Shown here: one piece after another, positions 1,900-7,979 of the stretch
Position numbering within the stretch: the stretch's first letter is position 1
Layout of the letters: every line of letters begins with the position of its first letter
DNA from: a bacterium
GTDB lineage: Bacteria; UBP15; UBA6099; DSWB01
Length of the DNA: 9,312 nt
Assembly: GCA_020061125.1 (NCBI GenBank)
Contig: JAGUYV010000282.1
Location: 1 to 9,312 of the forward strand
Direction of reading: 5' to 3'
Made by a program: the position numbers and the translations under genes
Notes under the pieces: model-generated
What the model was told of the DNA's origin: nothing
Seen by the model: only the letters and a program-made list of their open reading frames with translations
The model's database searches: none

Positions 1900-2565
1900 T
1901 TATTGATGCGGACGCAGGCTCATCACATAATACACGCCGTACAGGTCGCGCTGGTCGCGGTCCTTGAAAATCGAGGTGCGGAACCGGCGCACGGCGTAGC
2001 GGCGGAACCCGAGTTTCTGGTAGAAGCCGTGGGACTGGGTGTGCGCGGTGGAGGTGCCCAGATGAATGCCGGGCGAACCCATGCCGCGCAGATCGTCCAG
2101 CCATGCGCCCACGAGCCGCGCGCCCAGACCCAGGCGCCGGTACGGCGCGAACAGGTCTATGTGCAAATGCGCCGGAAACTGCTCCAGGGGCGGGGTCATG
2201 CCCTCGCCGCGCCATTGCGACAGCAGCCCGCGCGCGATGTACCGCGCGGTCACTCCGTCAATGCGGTATCTGCCGCGCGCCAGATTTTTGAATATCCGGG
2301 GAAACACCTCGCGCTTCATGGTTTCCTCGTATACGCGCGTGTCCGCGCAACCGAGCAGATACCCCGCGGGAGCACCGTCCGCCAGCCCGATATAGGCGTG
2401 CTCCGGCTCGTAGTCTGTGTAGTAAAGCGTGAGCAAGTCCGCGAACAGCTCGCGGTCCGTGAAAAACGGCGTCACATCGTCGCCGCCGTAACCGGTCACG
2501 AACACGCAGTCGCGCACCGCGGCGCGATACTTTGCGTCGTAGGGAACGATGGAAACTTCCGTCAT
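1900..2565 (-). CDS. GNAT-family N-acetyltransferase
   Basis: This 221-aa protein has the GNAT fold signatures. The acetyl-CoA pyrophosphate loop is RRLGLGA at 143-149, following the beta-strand HLHIDLF (133-139). The later strand and helix are GIHLGTS (166-172) and FYQKLGF (181-187). The N-terminal half (FFTDRELFADLLTLYYTDYE, 34-53, then PEHAYIG) resembles the acetyltransferase-like domains related to the C-terminal part of O-GlcNAcase; that subfamily link is from memory. The start is set at the ATG at 2565, which overlaps the TGA of the upstream gene as ATGA, so the two are probably translationally coupled. A longer frame extends upstream but would overlap most of the neighbour's end. The acyl acceptor cannot be told from sequence: small molecule, antibiotic or protein N-terminus are all possible. 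It is likely cytoplasmic, having no signal peptide. Confidence 0.88.
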   Translation of the reverse strand: MTEVSIVPYDAKYRAAVRDCVFVTGYGGDDVTPFFTDRELFADLLTLYYTDYEPEHAYIGLADGAPAGYLLGCADTRVYEETMKREVFPRIFKNLARGRYRIDGVTARYIARGLLSQWRGEGMTPPLEQFPAHLHIDLFAPYRRLGLGARLVGAWLDDLRGMGSPGIHLGTSTAHTQSHGFYQKLGFRRYAVRRFRTSIFKDRDQRDLYGVYYVMSLRPHQ

Positions 2566-3599
2566 GAAGGGATAACCTCGATGGAGCGTGTGACTCGGGG
2601 GTCCCGCTTGCGGCCCGCGAATTCCACATGCGTGGTGGCCAGGGATGTGAGCGTGTCCTCGTGCCGCCAGGAGCCCAGGGGGTGCGGCCGCCGGTACACG
2701 CGGATGGCGCTGTGGCCCGCCTCGGTGTTGTGGCACCACGCCGGATCCCCGTCCGGGTCCGCATATTCCGCACACACCATGTCCTGGAACCGCGCCGAAA
2801 TTTCGCCCTTGAACAGCGTGTTGCCGGACTGGGCGCGAATCTGCCACAGACCCGTCTCGAACTTGCCTCCGGTGCGGGCGAGGTGGTGCAGTTCCGTGAA
2901 CCGGTAATCCTTGCCGCGGTACCGCAGAAACAGAAAGTTGAACGGAGGCAGGGGCACGCCCAGGCGCTTGATCTGCACGCTCAAGCCCTCAAGCGTTGCG
3001 GTCCTGTCCTCGGCGAATGCGTTGCAATGGACCCAGGCCCAGCGCTCGGCGTGCTTTTCCCCCCACAAATGGGTCTGGTTTCCGGGATCGTTTTTAAGCT
3101 CGAAGGTCTGACCGTCTATGGTCACTCGGCCGTTCAGATACACATCCAGATGCGGGCACAGCGCCAGGGTGTCCGCCAGATGAACCCGGTACAGCATACG
3201 AGGCAGATGCAGATGCACGGTTTCCGAGGGGATGAAGCGGAAATCCCACTCCACGGTGCGGCCCAGGCCCTGGATGCGGCCCGCGGCGCGCCCGTCGCTC
3301 AACCCGTTGTGCCCGATCAGCAACTGAAAATCGCTGTGCTCCGCGTGCAGCGCGCTGATGGGGTATTTTGCGGTCAGTCCGAAATTCTTTTCCGGCTCAC
3401 GGTAATTGAAATACGAAAACCAGATCTGCGCCCAGGGTTCGGGGCCGCCCTGCACGGGCGCGGTCATGGTGTACCTGATCCAGAATCCAGACTTGGACTT
3501 GAGGTGGTTGAAGGTCAGGTAATAGACCTCGTAATGGCCCCTGCGGCCTTTGGTCCACTTTAACCGGTTCGCCTGTTCCGGGGTGCGCGGCACGCTCAT
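2562..3599 (-). CDS. Tocopherol cyclase / AttH-like beta-barrel domain protein
   Basis: This 345-aa protein has no signal peptide or membrane segment. Two stretches recall the tocopherol cyclase/AttH/CrtC lipocalin-like superfamily. One is an N-terminal strand with HYEVYYLTF then GFWIRYTM (22-45). The other is an aromatic-rich central segment, HLWGEKHAERWAWVHCNAF at 177-195, followed by ATLEGLSVQIKRLG and a strand FNFLFLRYRGKDYRF (220-234). Known members act on or bind hydrophobic polyprenyl or carotenoid-type ligands, so a lipid/isoprenoid ligand is a guess. The start ATG at 3599 has GGGAGG just upstream and lies about 26 bp behind a predicted transcription start. It is first in a minus-strand operon with the GNAT gene (4-base ATGA overlap). 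The family call is moderate; function is undetermined. Confidence 0.65.
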   Translation of the reverse strand: MSVPRTPEQANRLKWTKGRRGHYEVYYLTFNHLKSKSGFWIRYTMTAPVQGGPEPWAQIWFSYFNYREPEKNFGLTAKYPISALHAEHSDFQLLIGHNGLSDGRAAGRIQGLGRTVEWDFRFIPSETVHLHLPRMLYRVHLADTLALCPHLDVYLNGRVTIDGQTFELKNDPGNQTHLWGEKHAERWAWVHCNAFAEDRTATLEGLSVQIKRLGVPLPPFNFLFLRYRGKDYRFTELHHLARTGGKFETGLWQIRAQSGNTLFKGEISARFQDMVCAEYADPDGDPAWCHNTEAGHSAIRVYRRPHPLGSWRHEDTLTSLATTHVEFAGRKRDPRVTRSIEVIPS

Positions 3600-4640: not shown

Positions 4641-4779
4641 CTGTAGCATTCAAAGCATGCACGGCGGCAGCGCCGGACGCCCCTGCGTGGAAAAGGCATT
4701 CGGTACCCGGGACGGCGCGCTTATCCGTGTTGTGAAATAGCAGAGTATCGGGGCTATCGCTTGAACTTGAACTGGCAGA

Positions 4780-5259
4780 TTACGAATCTAACAGGATTCT
4801 GACAGCATCGAGAACTTCTTCGATCAAAAATGGTTTTTGGATAAATTTTTGTCTTGATTGATTAAACATGGATTCCGATTCTTCGCTTATGTTCTGCCCT
4901 GAAGCGAAGAGAACCTTGACATCCCTGTCAATTTCTTGCATCCTCCCAAAAACCTCTGCTCCGTCCATGTCAGGCATCATCATGTCCTGAATGACAAGTG
5001 CAATATGATTATGCTTTTCGGCAAAGATCCGGACTGCTTCACTCCCATTGTCAACACAAATAGTCTCATAACCAGCCTTGTCTAATATTTTCCCCGCCAT
5101 TTTCAGCATGCTCTTTTCATCATCCACAATCATGATGCAGCCTTTGCCCGCGGAATATTCTGAAAGATGCGAGTCATTGGTGTCATGGACGGGATCTTCC
5201 GTCAGGGGCATCAATATTTTTACGGCTGTCCCTTGTCCAAGGGCGCTTTGAATGTGCAT
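4780..5259 (-). CDS. Response-regulator receiver half of the broken hybrid kinase
   Basis: This frame begins inside the ATPase domain: its first 20 residues (MHIQSALGQGTAVKILMPL) are the last strands of a HATPase (G3-type G8-G10). It is in the same frame as the kinase upstream. After a linker comes a complete REC domain (about 40-158) with acidic pair D46/D47, phospho-acceptor D92 in QDMMMPDMDG, S120 in LFASG and K142 in QKPF, so it looks phosphorylatable. The 32 codons 5355-5260 between the amber codon and this Met encode the missing F and G2 boxes (EPFFTTKGVGKGTGLGLS). The ATG at 5259 has no convincing ribosome site, so independent translation from it is doubtful. An ATG at 5133 has AAAGG seven bases before it but would clip the first REC strand. 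Best read as the C-terminal part of one gene, 7596-4780. Confidence 0.8.
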   Translation of the reverse strand: MHIQSALGQGTAVKILMPLTEDPVHDTNDSHLSEYSAGKGCIMIVDDEKSMLKMAGKILDKAGYETICVDNGSEAVRIFAEKHNHIALVIQDMMMPDMDGAEVFGRMQEIDRDVKVLFASGQNISEESESMFNQSRQKFIQKPFLIEEVLDAVRILLDS

Positions 5260-5355
5260 GTGACCATTGTGGCCCTGAATGATGCCATAGGTTACTGACA
5301 GCCCCAGTCCTGTTCCCTTGCCGACACCTTTTGTGGTAAAAAAGGGTTCGATTGC

Positions 5356-5358
5356 CTA
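5356..5358 (-). other. In-frame amber codon interrupting the hybrid kinase
   Basis: The minus-strand codon TAG at 5358-5356 follows DTGTGMPQDYID and precedes AIEPFFTTK in the same frame. Related kinases usually carry a basic or polar residue here before the FEPFFTTK F box. A single base change from AAG, CAG or GAG would give TAG. No frameshift accompanies it. Confidence 0.9.
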
Positions 5359-7596
5359 ATCAATGTAATCCTGTGGCATGCCGGTTCCGGTGTCTGATAT
5401 TTCTATTGCACAGCAACGAATATCCATAGGGTTGCCGCAAATTGAGCATTTGCCATTTTCGGACGCCTCATTGCGGCATTCAATAATCAAATTGCCGCCC
5501 GTTGGCATGGCGTCCACTGCGTTAATGCAAATATTCAAGAGGGCCTGTGTTATCTGGGAGACATCGCATTTTATTTTGCATTCATCATTGATCTGCGAGG
5601 TAATAACGATATTTTGCGGCACGGTTCTTTTCAGCATTCCCTGAATGGTGGAAATAATTTCTCGAACGAAAACGGCTTCTGCTTTTTTGACAGTGTCTTT
5701 TCTGGCAAACAAAAGGAGCTTGGAGGTGAGGTCTCTTGACCTTTGAGCGGCGGCAATAATTTCGCTGACTTCCTCTGATTCAGATACTTCGGATAAAGAG
5801 CTGGTTTTCAGGAGCTGCGCATTTCCCATGATGATTCCAAGCATGTTGTTGAAATCGTGCGCTATTCCGCCAGCGAGCTGACCAATGGCTTGGATTTTTT
5901 GTGCGTGAAGCAATTGCTTTTGCAGCTGTTCTTTCTCGCGTTCAGCGTTTATCCGGTCTGTGATATCTGTAAATATTGTAGCGAAGCGAGAACGCCCCAT
6001 ATTGGTTGCCGAAATGTGGAAATGCTTATCCAAAGGCATAAAATAAGTATCAAATTCCATTTGCTGATTCGTTAATACGACTGAACTATATTCAGAAAGA
6101 TAGGGTGGCGCCTCTGTCGAATATATCTCTGTCGCCAGCTTGCCCACAACCGATTCTTTCTTAATTCCAACAATGGCTTCATACTGGGGATTGACATCCA
6201 ATAATTCATAATTGATCGGGACACCAGACCCATTGAAAACCAATTTGTGGATTGCTACCCCTTCTTTCATACTGCCAAACAGTGAACGAAACCTCTCCTC
6301 GCTTTCTTGAAGCGATTGTTCGGTTTTCTTCCTCTCCGTAATGTCCCGCACAATTCCTTGTACAATTTCCTTGTCTTTCACAATGACGCGTGCGCTGACC
6401 TCAACCTCCACAATGCGTTGATCCGATTTCTTGAATTGTGTTTCAAATTTTACTTCACCCGCCTCACGGCATAGGTCGATCTGCGTTTGTACTTGCGGCA
6501 ACACTTGTTCCGGATGAAGTTCCTGCAACCGCAACGATAGTAATTCTTCATGAGAATACCCCATCATTGCGCAGGCTTTGTCGTTGGCGTCAAATATTCG
6601 CCCTCTCAAATCATGAATGAATACCGCATCATTGGATTGCTCGAATAATCTGCGGTAGCGCCCCTCGCTTTCCCGCAATGCCTGTTCCGCAATTTTCCGT
6701 TCCGTGATATCTCTGACAACTCCGATGATGCCGATGATCTCTCCTTCATTGTTTCTTAATGCGCCGCTCGTGTCCGAGGCCCACCCGGAACGCCCGGATT
6801 CAGGGAGGTTATAGGAAAATTCAGCGGATTCCGTTTGCTCGCCTTTCAATGCTTTTTGCAGCCTGTCAATCACGCCTGCATCCTTGAGAAACGGGAATAC
6901 CTCAAGCGGGGTTTTCCCCAAAACCTTGTCCGCACAAACACCGCTTATCTTCTCCATCTGGGGATTCCAGACTTGATATTTCAAGTCCGTGTCATAAATG
7001 ATGATCCCGTCTTGCGCGCTGTTGACAACTTGCGCGTTGAATTCAGATAAATCGGCAAATTTCTTCTGATACTCAAGCTCACGCAACCGTTTGAGGCCAA
7101 TGCCGGAAATGACTTCAATCATTCCCTTGATAAAATACAAGTAATTCTCAAGCTGCTTTTTTGTCCATATAGGAACTCGCTTAACCGCTTTCAGGTACTC
7201 TGTTTCATCGAAACCATACTTTTTTGCCTGTATCCTGAATCGCTCAATGTCCGGCTTTTCAAGAAAAAACTGCCCCGTGAAGAAATTACCGTAATGCACC
7301 CCATCAATGATGATCGGTGTGGCGTTGTCAATCAGTCCATGCGGGCATTCATAGCTTACAGCGGGGTTGGCTTCATGGATGTGCTCAAGAATGTACTGGT
7401 CGCTTTTTATACATTCTTTTTCGCATTCTTTGTGCCGCCTGTGGAATTTGGTGCAGATATCCTGCCATGCAGTCGCCGTGAGGACCGTTCCTTGGTTGTC
7501 AATAATGGCGGAGGGGAAAGAATAAATCTCGTTCAATCTGTCCTGGAGCATCTGAAACTGCTCCATGTCAATCAGGTCCGTAAGTTGATATTTCAT
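5356..7596 (-). CDS. PocR-PAS-PAS-PAS hybrid sensor histidine kinase, cut by an in-frame stop
   Basis: A cytoplasmic-looking sensor kinase with no membrane segment. Residues 1-170 form a PocR-type ligand domain with its cysteines (C48, C58, C62, C84) and SYECPHGLID and GNFFTGQF motifs; PocR domains are thought to sense small diols or hydrocarbon derivatives. Three PAS domains follow (about 180-300, 305-422, 432-548), two ending in VRDITERK and one in FTDITDR. The HisKA domain has H580 in GGIAHDFNN, and the ATPase has the N box (NICINAVDAM, 688-697) and G1 box (DTGTGM, 735-740). A CxxC plus CC insertion (C717, C720, C728, C729) lies between the N and G1 boxes. The frame then ends at TAG, losing the F and G2 boxes, so the 746-aa product should not bind ATP normally. 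Read through, it would be 938 codons ending in the REC domain. It is markedly AT-richer than its neighbours, suggesting transfer. Confidence 0.9.
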   Translation of the reverse strand: MKYQLTDLIDMEQFQMLQDRLNEIYSFPSAIIDNQGTVLTATAWQDICTKFHRRHKECEKECIKSDQYILEHIHEANPAVSYECPHGLIDNATPIIIDGVHYGNFFTGQFFLEKPDIERFRIQAKKYGFDETEYLKAVKRVPIWTKKQLENYLYFIKGMIEVISGIGLKRLRELEYQKKFADLSEFNAQVVNSAQDGIIIYDTDLKYQVWNPQMEKISGVCADKVLGKTPLEVFPFLKDAGVIDRLQKALKGEQTESAEFSYNLPESGRSGWASDTSGALRNNEGEIIGIIGVVRDITERKIAEQALRESEGRYRRLFEQSNDAVFIHDLRGRIFDANDKACAMMGYSHEELLSLRLQELHPEQVLPQVQTQIDLCREAGEVKFETQFKKSDQRIVEVEVSARVIVKDKEIVQGIVRDITERKKTEQSLQESEERFRSLFGSMKEGVAIHKLVFNGSGVPINYELLDVNPQYEAIVGIKKESVVGKLATEIYSTEAPPYLSEYSSVVLTNQQMEFDTYFMPLDKHFHISATNMGRSRFATIFTDITDRINAEREKEQLQKQLLHAQKIQAIGQLAGGIAHDFNNMLGIIMGNAQLLKTSSLSEVSESEEVSEIIAAAQRSRDLTSKLLLFARKDTVKKAEAVFVREIISTIQGMLKRTVPQNIVITSQINDECKIKCDVSQITQALLNICINAVDAMPTGGNLIIECRNEASENGKCSICGNPMDIRCCAIEISDTGTGMPQDYID

Positions 7597-7904
7597 CAGA
7601 ATTTCCCCATGCCATTTTGCATTGCATCTGTTGTGATATATATTAACAACAATTCCTTAAATCTGCATCGGACAACAATTCCCTCATGTCAAGTTGATTG
7701 TTGATAATACAGCTTTGGTTGCATGACAATGCCACAATTTATCAACATCATGCCGTTTGAAAGCACCATTCCACACACCGCAAACAGGTACAATATCTCT
7801 CCGACGCTGTGGGTTCTGACATCACGACTTTATACCAGAAATAAACCAGGGGAAAAGCCTGCTTGAAAAAGCCTTCATTTATGCAGATATTTCTGTTCGA
7901 AAAA
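7597..7904. other. AT-rich intergenic region upstream of the kinase, no gene seen
   Basis: These 308 bp separate the tRNA 3' end from the kinase start. They hold two direct copies of ACAACAATTCC (7646-7656, 7672-7682) and one inverted CAACAAT (7697-7703), which may be regulator sites for the kinase. An AT-rich TAATATATAT stretch on the minus strand (about 7637-7645) could be its -10 region, but no matching -35 is clear. I found no convincing terminator for the tRNA and no tRNA-end duplicate. Confidence 0.4.
7646..7703. repeat. Short direct/inverted repeats in the kinase upstream region
   Basis: ACAACAATTCC occurs at 7646-7656 and again at 7672-7682 (26 bp apart), and ATTGTTG, the reverse complement of the CAACAAT core, at 7697-7703. 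Their place 50-107 bp before the kinase start suggests operators, although an AT-rich background makes chance similarity possible. Confidence 0.35.
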
Positions 7905-7979
7905 TCGGAGTGGTGGGATTTGAACCCACGGCCTCTGCGTCCCGAACGCAGCACTCTAACCGGGCTGAGCTACACTCCG
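7905..7979 (-). tRNA. tRNA-Pro(CGG)
   Basis: The 75-base cloverleaf folds fully. The acceptor CGGAGTG pairs with CACTCCG, with discriminator A. The D stem is GCTC/GAGT with loop AGCCCGGTTA. The anticodon stem CTGCG/CGCAG has loop TTCGGGA, giving anticodon CGG, which reads proline codon CCG. The variable loop is AGGCC and the T stem GTGGG/CCCAC has loop TTCAAAT. CCA is not encoded. Its 3' end faces the AT-rich kinase block. A frame running through it (peptide ...GFKSHHSD) is an artefact of the tRNA sequence. Confidence 0.97.

Follow-up and report, generated by a model that had tools for sequence, protein, structure and literature searches.

A single in-frame amber codon divides a probably foreign hybrid histidine kinase gene: likely recent inactivation in a draft bacterial genome

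The window analyzed here, 9,312 nucleotides long, makes up an entire contig from a 4.1 Mb draft genome that comprises 513 contigs and is estimated to be 78.8% complete. On its minus strand, one long frame of 746 codons runs from an ATG at 7596 to a TAG at 5358–5356, which is codon 747. Past the TAG the same frame stays open from 5355 to a stop at 4782–4780, giving 191 more codons without any other lesion. Pfam profiles place PocR (7–166), three PAS domains, HisKA and profile positions 2–54 of HATPase_c in the upstream part (5356–7596). The downstream part (4780–5355) begins with HATPase_c profile positions 59–110 and continues into a full Response_reg (REC) domain (1–111 of 111). The gap between the two HATPase_c matches is only about five profile positions, indicating a single domain that is split by the TAG. 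The G1 box (DTGTGMP) lies upstream of the amber codon, and the F box (EPFFTTK) and G2 box (GTGLGL) lie downstream of it.

When both sides of the stop are counted, the frame encodes a hybrid histidine kinase: the phosphoacceptor His, the N, G1, F and G2 boxes, and the acidic, Ser/Thr and Lys residues of REC are all identifiable from Pfam and the sequence. As a translated product the hybrid kinase is interrupted at 5358–5356, and its domains do not share one uninterrupted frame. Columns conserved in at least 85% of 40 other proteins with the same kinase-receiver arrangement are kept at 31 of 34 positions after the TAG and at 31 of 33 before it. Judged by sequence, this is far more conservation after the stop than a chance open frame gives. 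An earlier note, made from the DNA alone, had put the amber codon between the G1 and F/G2 boxes, had followed an intact frame through REC to 4780, and had listed D46/D47, D92 and K142 (numbered from an ATG at 5259) as retained; the motifs, the HATPase_c positions and the lesion-free 191 codons bear out each of these statements. The domain order, the H, N, G1, F and G2 boxes and the REC residues are common to CckA-like HisKA/HATPase_c/REC hybrid kinases, among which the best solved relative is the histidine kinase 5idj. The window kinase differs from these in its input domains (PocR and three PAS) and in having its frame broken by one TAG.

The amber column was compared in relatives of two kinds, the earlier note having proposed an alignment of orthologues at this codon. 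It holds a sense codon, in an unbroken frame, in all 41 kinase cores that lie beside relatives of the PocR domain and in all 45 aligned regions of the bacterium's own genome, the situation that defines a nonsense pseudogene on the side of its relatives. The residues across both sets are chiefly basic (35 Arg, 22 Lys and 11 His); Asn, Gln and others make up the remainder. No stop was found in the matches that span the split in any of the 41 relatives, so no conserved split gene is seen, and by this comparison the split is private to the window's sequence. Relative to the upstream half, the identity of the second HATPase half ranks 12 and that of REC ranks 7 among 41 proteins. Neither is an outlier, the set holds no close full-length orthologue, and decay due to relaxed selection after the stop is not detectable at the available distance. 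No intact second copy of the kinase was found in the genome itself, where the next best match is 41% identical; a first scan of the genome's contigs with the whole upstream protein as query returned no match.

These comparisons bear on the idea that the two pieces are functional separately, the truncated sensor acting alone (for example, by heterodimerizing) and a separate receiver starting at an ATG at 5133. Motifs are kept in both pieces, and the ATG at 5133 sits at the start of the REC domain with a weak AAAGG seven bases upstream. The first in-frame ATG, GTG or TTG past the TAG, the ATG at 5259, has no good ribosome site, as the earlier note had also observed. The break, however, cuts through a folded domain, so that each piece has just half of a HATPase. 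HATPase and REC share one open frame in the relatives, and the two separately started genes that, by the earlier note, would have spoken against an interrupted kinase were not seen. With no conservation of the split seen, a functional division of this kind is highly improbable. Automatic annotation would list a sensor protein and a response regulator at this place, and both entries would mislead.

The kinase gene has a GC content of 0.454, whereas genes of this genome average 0.609 (SD 0.036), and it falls in the lowest 1% of 724 genes. It lies in a GC-poor block (∼0.45) from approximately 4700 to 7900 (4700–7904), which, by its composition against the genome sample, is probably foreign DNA. 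The block adjoins a tRNA-Pro (CGG) gene on the minus strand at 7905–7979, identified by Rfam and ARAGORN. The 3′ end of the tRNA forms one border of the block, as in an integrated segment, and the tRNA gene is a possible insertion point. A tRNA-associated integrated element would be recognized by an integrase or by a second copy of the tRNA 3′ end at the opposite border; no att-like repeat of the tRNA-Pro 3′ end occurs elsewhere in the window, and no integrase was found among the window proteins examined. A syntenic empty site was sought in genomes of the same order, but the cyclophilin relatives there have no adjoining tRNA-Pro, which makes the comparison uninformative.

A search of same-order genomes with the PocR-PAS N terminus gave no match at E = 1e-30. 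Relatives of the PocR domain, 76 in all, were found in Desulfobacterota, Hydrogenedentes, Bacteroidetes, Spirochaetes, Chloroflexi, Acidobacteria and other phyla, as well as in Methanoperedens archaea; the nearest are 70%–78% identical, and the downstream modules joined to the 76 relatives differ. We conclude that the kinase was probably picked up from another species. Among the kinase cores found, the nearest is that of a paralogue from the bacterium itself, 49% identical and with host-like GC, and for this reason the history of the gene may include module recombination. PocR-domain sensor kinases of anaerobic sediment bacteria (e.g., L266 and L255) share the PocR domain, the PAS domains and the kinase-receiver core along one frame. 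Their frames are unbroken, unlike that of the window, and the kinase cores are only ∼30%–38% identical.

Two further observations concern sequences around these domains. The PocR input domain (window 7059–7596; loci L210–L285) is a widely exchanged sensory module whose attached PAS and kinase modules vary, and its ligand would be worth finding. At one locus (L045 of genome G048, 1501–2349) a PocR domain 65% identical to that of the window belongs to a 305-residue protein that continues as a coiled coil, with no kinase domain seen. Elsewhere in the window, an open reading frame on the minus strand (2562–3599) matches tocopherol cyclase (PF14249) weakly, though above the cut-off, and possibly encodes a related lipid-binding or hydratase-like protein.

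An intact frame beyond an amber codon also raises the possibility that the codon is decoded, by pyrrolysine insertion or by a suppressor tRNA, and that full-length kinase is made. Stop-codon usage was counted in 1.3 Mb of the genome. The 724 long open reading frames there end in TAG 114 times (∼16%), in TGA 437 times and in TAA 173 times, and the median open frame beyond the stop is equally short for TAG (26.5 codons), TGA (27) and TAA (30.5). TAG is thus a frequent normal stop, and RF1 is present in the genome, scoring above its curated cut-off. All 40 tRNA genes found in the 79%-complete genome carry ordinary anticodons, with no CUA among them. The earlier note had suggested a search for pyl genes; in the same incomplete genome, the PylS match reached only 26 bits (cut-off 178), a weak signal of a kind that also arises in genomes such as that of E. 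coli, and PylD gave no match. In six genomes of the same order, too, no match to PylS or PylD exceeded the cut-off. The RNA that follows the TAG does not fold better than shuffled controls, which gives no indication of a read-through element. Where bacteria are known to use pyrrolysine, they depend on a synthetase, an amber tRNA and genes for its synthesis, and such use has been reported for methylamine methyltransferases (PMC8318568). The pyrrolysine proteins of Deltaproteobacteria (PMC8318568) resemble the window kinase in having an in-frame amber codon with a conserved frame beyond it. In contrast to these, the kinase is no methylamine methyltransferase, its amber codon is not conserved, and it lies in a genome in which TAG is a frequent stop and in which no PylS, PylD or amber tRNA was found. 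With roughly a fifth of the genome missing from the assembly, these absences are not absolute. Taken together, TAG usage, RF1, the tRNAs, PylS and PylD are all contrary to pyrrolysine or other amber recoding, and recoding of TAG in this bacterium is very unlikely. As the bacterium shows no machinery to read the stop as an amino acid, we take the gene to be simply broken, or the TAG to be an assembly error.

The genome was also scanned for other in-frame TAGs, a check that the earlier note had called for. Frames whose coding sequence extends past a stop were collected from the 1.3 Mb, and 81 candidates were read by eye; the scan is blind to short, low-scoring and frameshifted cases. One more clear interruption was recognized: an acyl-CoA dehydrogenase gene on contig C217 (L075:1701–2849, minus strand) carries a lone in-frame TAG at residue 297, inside the C-terminal domain. 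Its orthologues in the same order are unbroken in six of six genomes, are 75%–79% identical and have Glu at this position. Past the TAG, identity is 79%–84%, against 80%–86% between intact orthologues, which reveals no decay. No TAA or TGA interruption was recognized among the 81 candidates, leaving the kinase and the dehydrogenase as the only two interruptions in 1.3 Mb, both TAG. Two of two is not a significant excess, because a random nonsense change in this genome would yield TAG about half the time.

The second TAG can be weighed in more than one way. That a conserved gene elsewhere in this genome also has an in-frame amber would fit amber decoding, as does the intact frame of the kinase. 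However, the relatives have Arg, Lys or His at the kinase site and Glu at the dehydrogenase site, and no single decoding fits two different residues; decoding of the kinase amber is accordingly a very remote prospect. We consider it similarly far-fetched that UAG is tolerated or suppressed through a tRNA encoded in the missing fifth of the genome, with both the kinase and the acyl-CoA dehydrogenase made full length by read-through. A different view is that the TAG arose through a wrong base call or during assembly of this draft metagenome, or that the consensus recorded the variant of a minority strain; the living population would then have an intact kinase. The fragmented state of the genome (513 contigs, 79% complete) and the lone TAG in a conserved dehydrogenase whose downstream part shows no decay are consistent with this. 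Set against it, only two interruptions were recognized in 1.3 Mb, none of them TAA or TGA, which is not the picture of an error-ridden assembly, and the kinase gene is foreign and of a class that is often lost. An error or variant is therefore unlikely, though an error is the main alternative. Both TAGs are compatible with recent nonsense mutations.

The observations are probably best explained by a hybrid histidine kinase, of architecture PocR-PAS-PAS-PAS-HisKA-HATPase-REC, that was acquired horizontally and inactivated recently. Here the amber codon would act as an ordinary stop, and the product would be at most 746 residues long, with its sensory domains, phosphoacceptor His, N box and G1 box retained. 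From what is understood of histidine-kinase structure, a protein that lacks the ATP lid with the F and G2 region, and the receiver, would be expected neither to autophosphorylate nor to pass phosphate on. Like other bacterial nonsense pseudogenes, the gene has one premature stop in an otherwise conserved foreign sequence and intact relatives; it differs from them in showing no visible decay past the stop yet. The frame and motifs there are unusually clean for a pseudogene, a point that counts against this reading and means that it needs a recent event, with too little time having elapsed for the remainder of the frame to decay. Loss of function, its recency, and a base that is real rather than an assembly error are all three things that we infer. 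Of the three readings that the earlier note had offered, a recent nonsense mutation is the best supported and sequencing error is retained as an alternative, whereas read-through or recoding is opposed by the frequent use of TAG as a stop, by RF1 and by the lack of a CUA tRNA, PylS and PylD among the sequences found.

Amber read-through, if true, would matter greatly, but the way TAG is used, the presence of RF1 and the lack of decoding machinery among the sequences found argue to the contrary. The kinase finding is real but ordinary: for a striking in-frame amber codon in a draft genome, common gene loss following horizontal transfer, or else an error of assembly, is here the best explanation.
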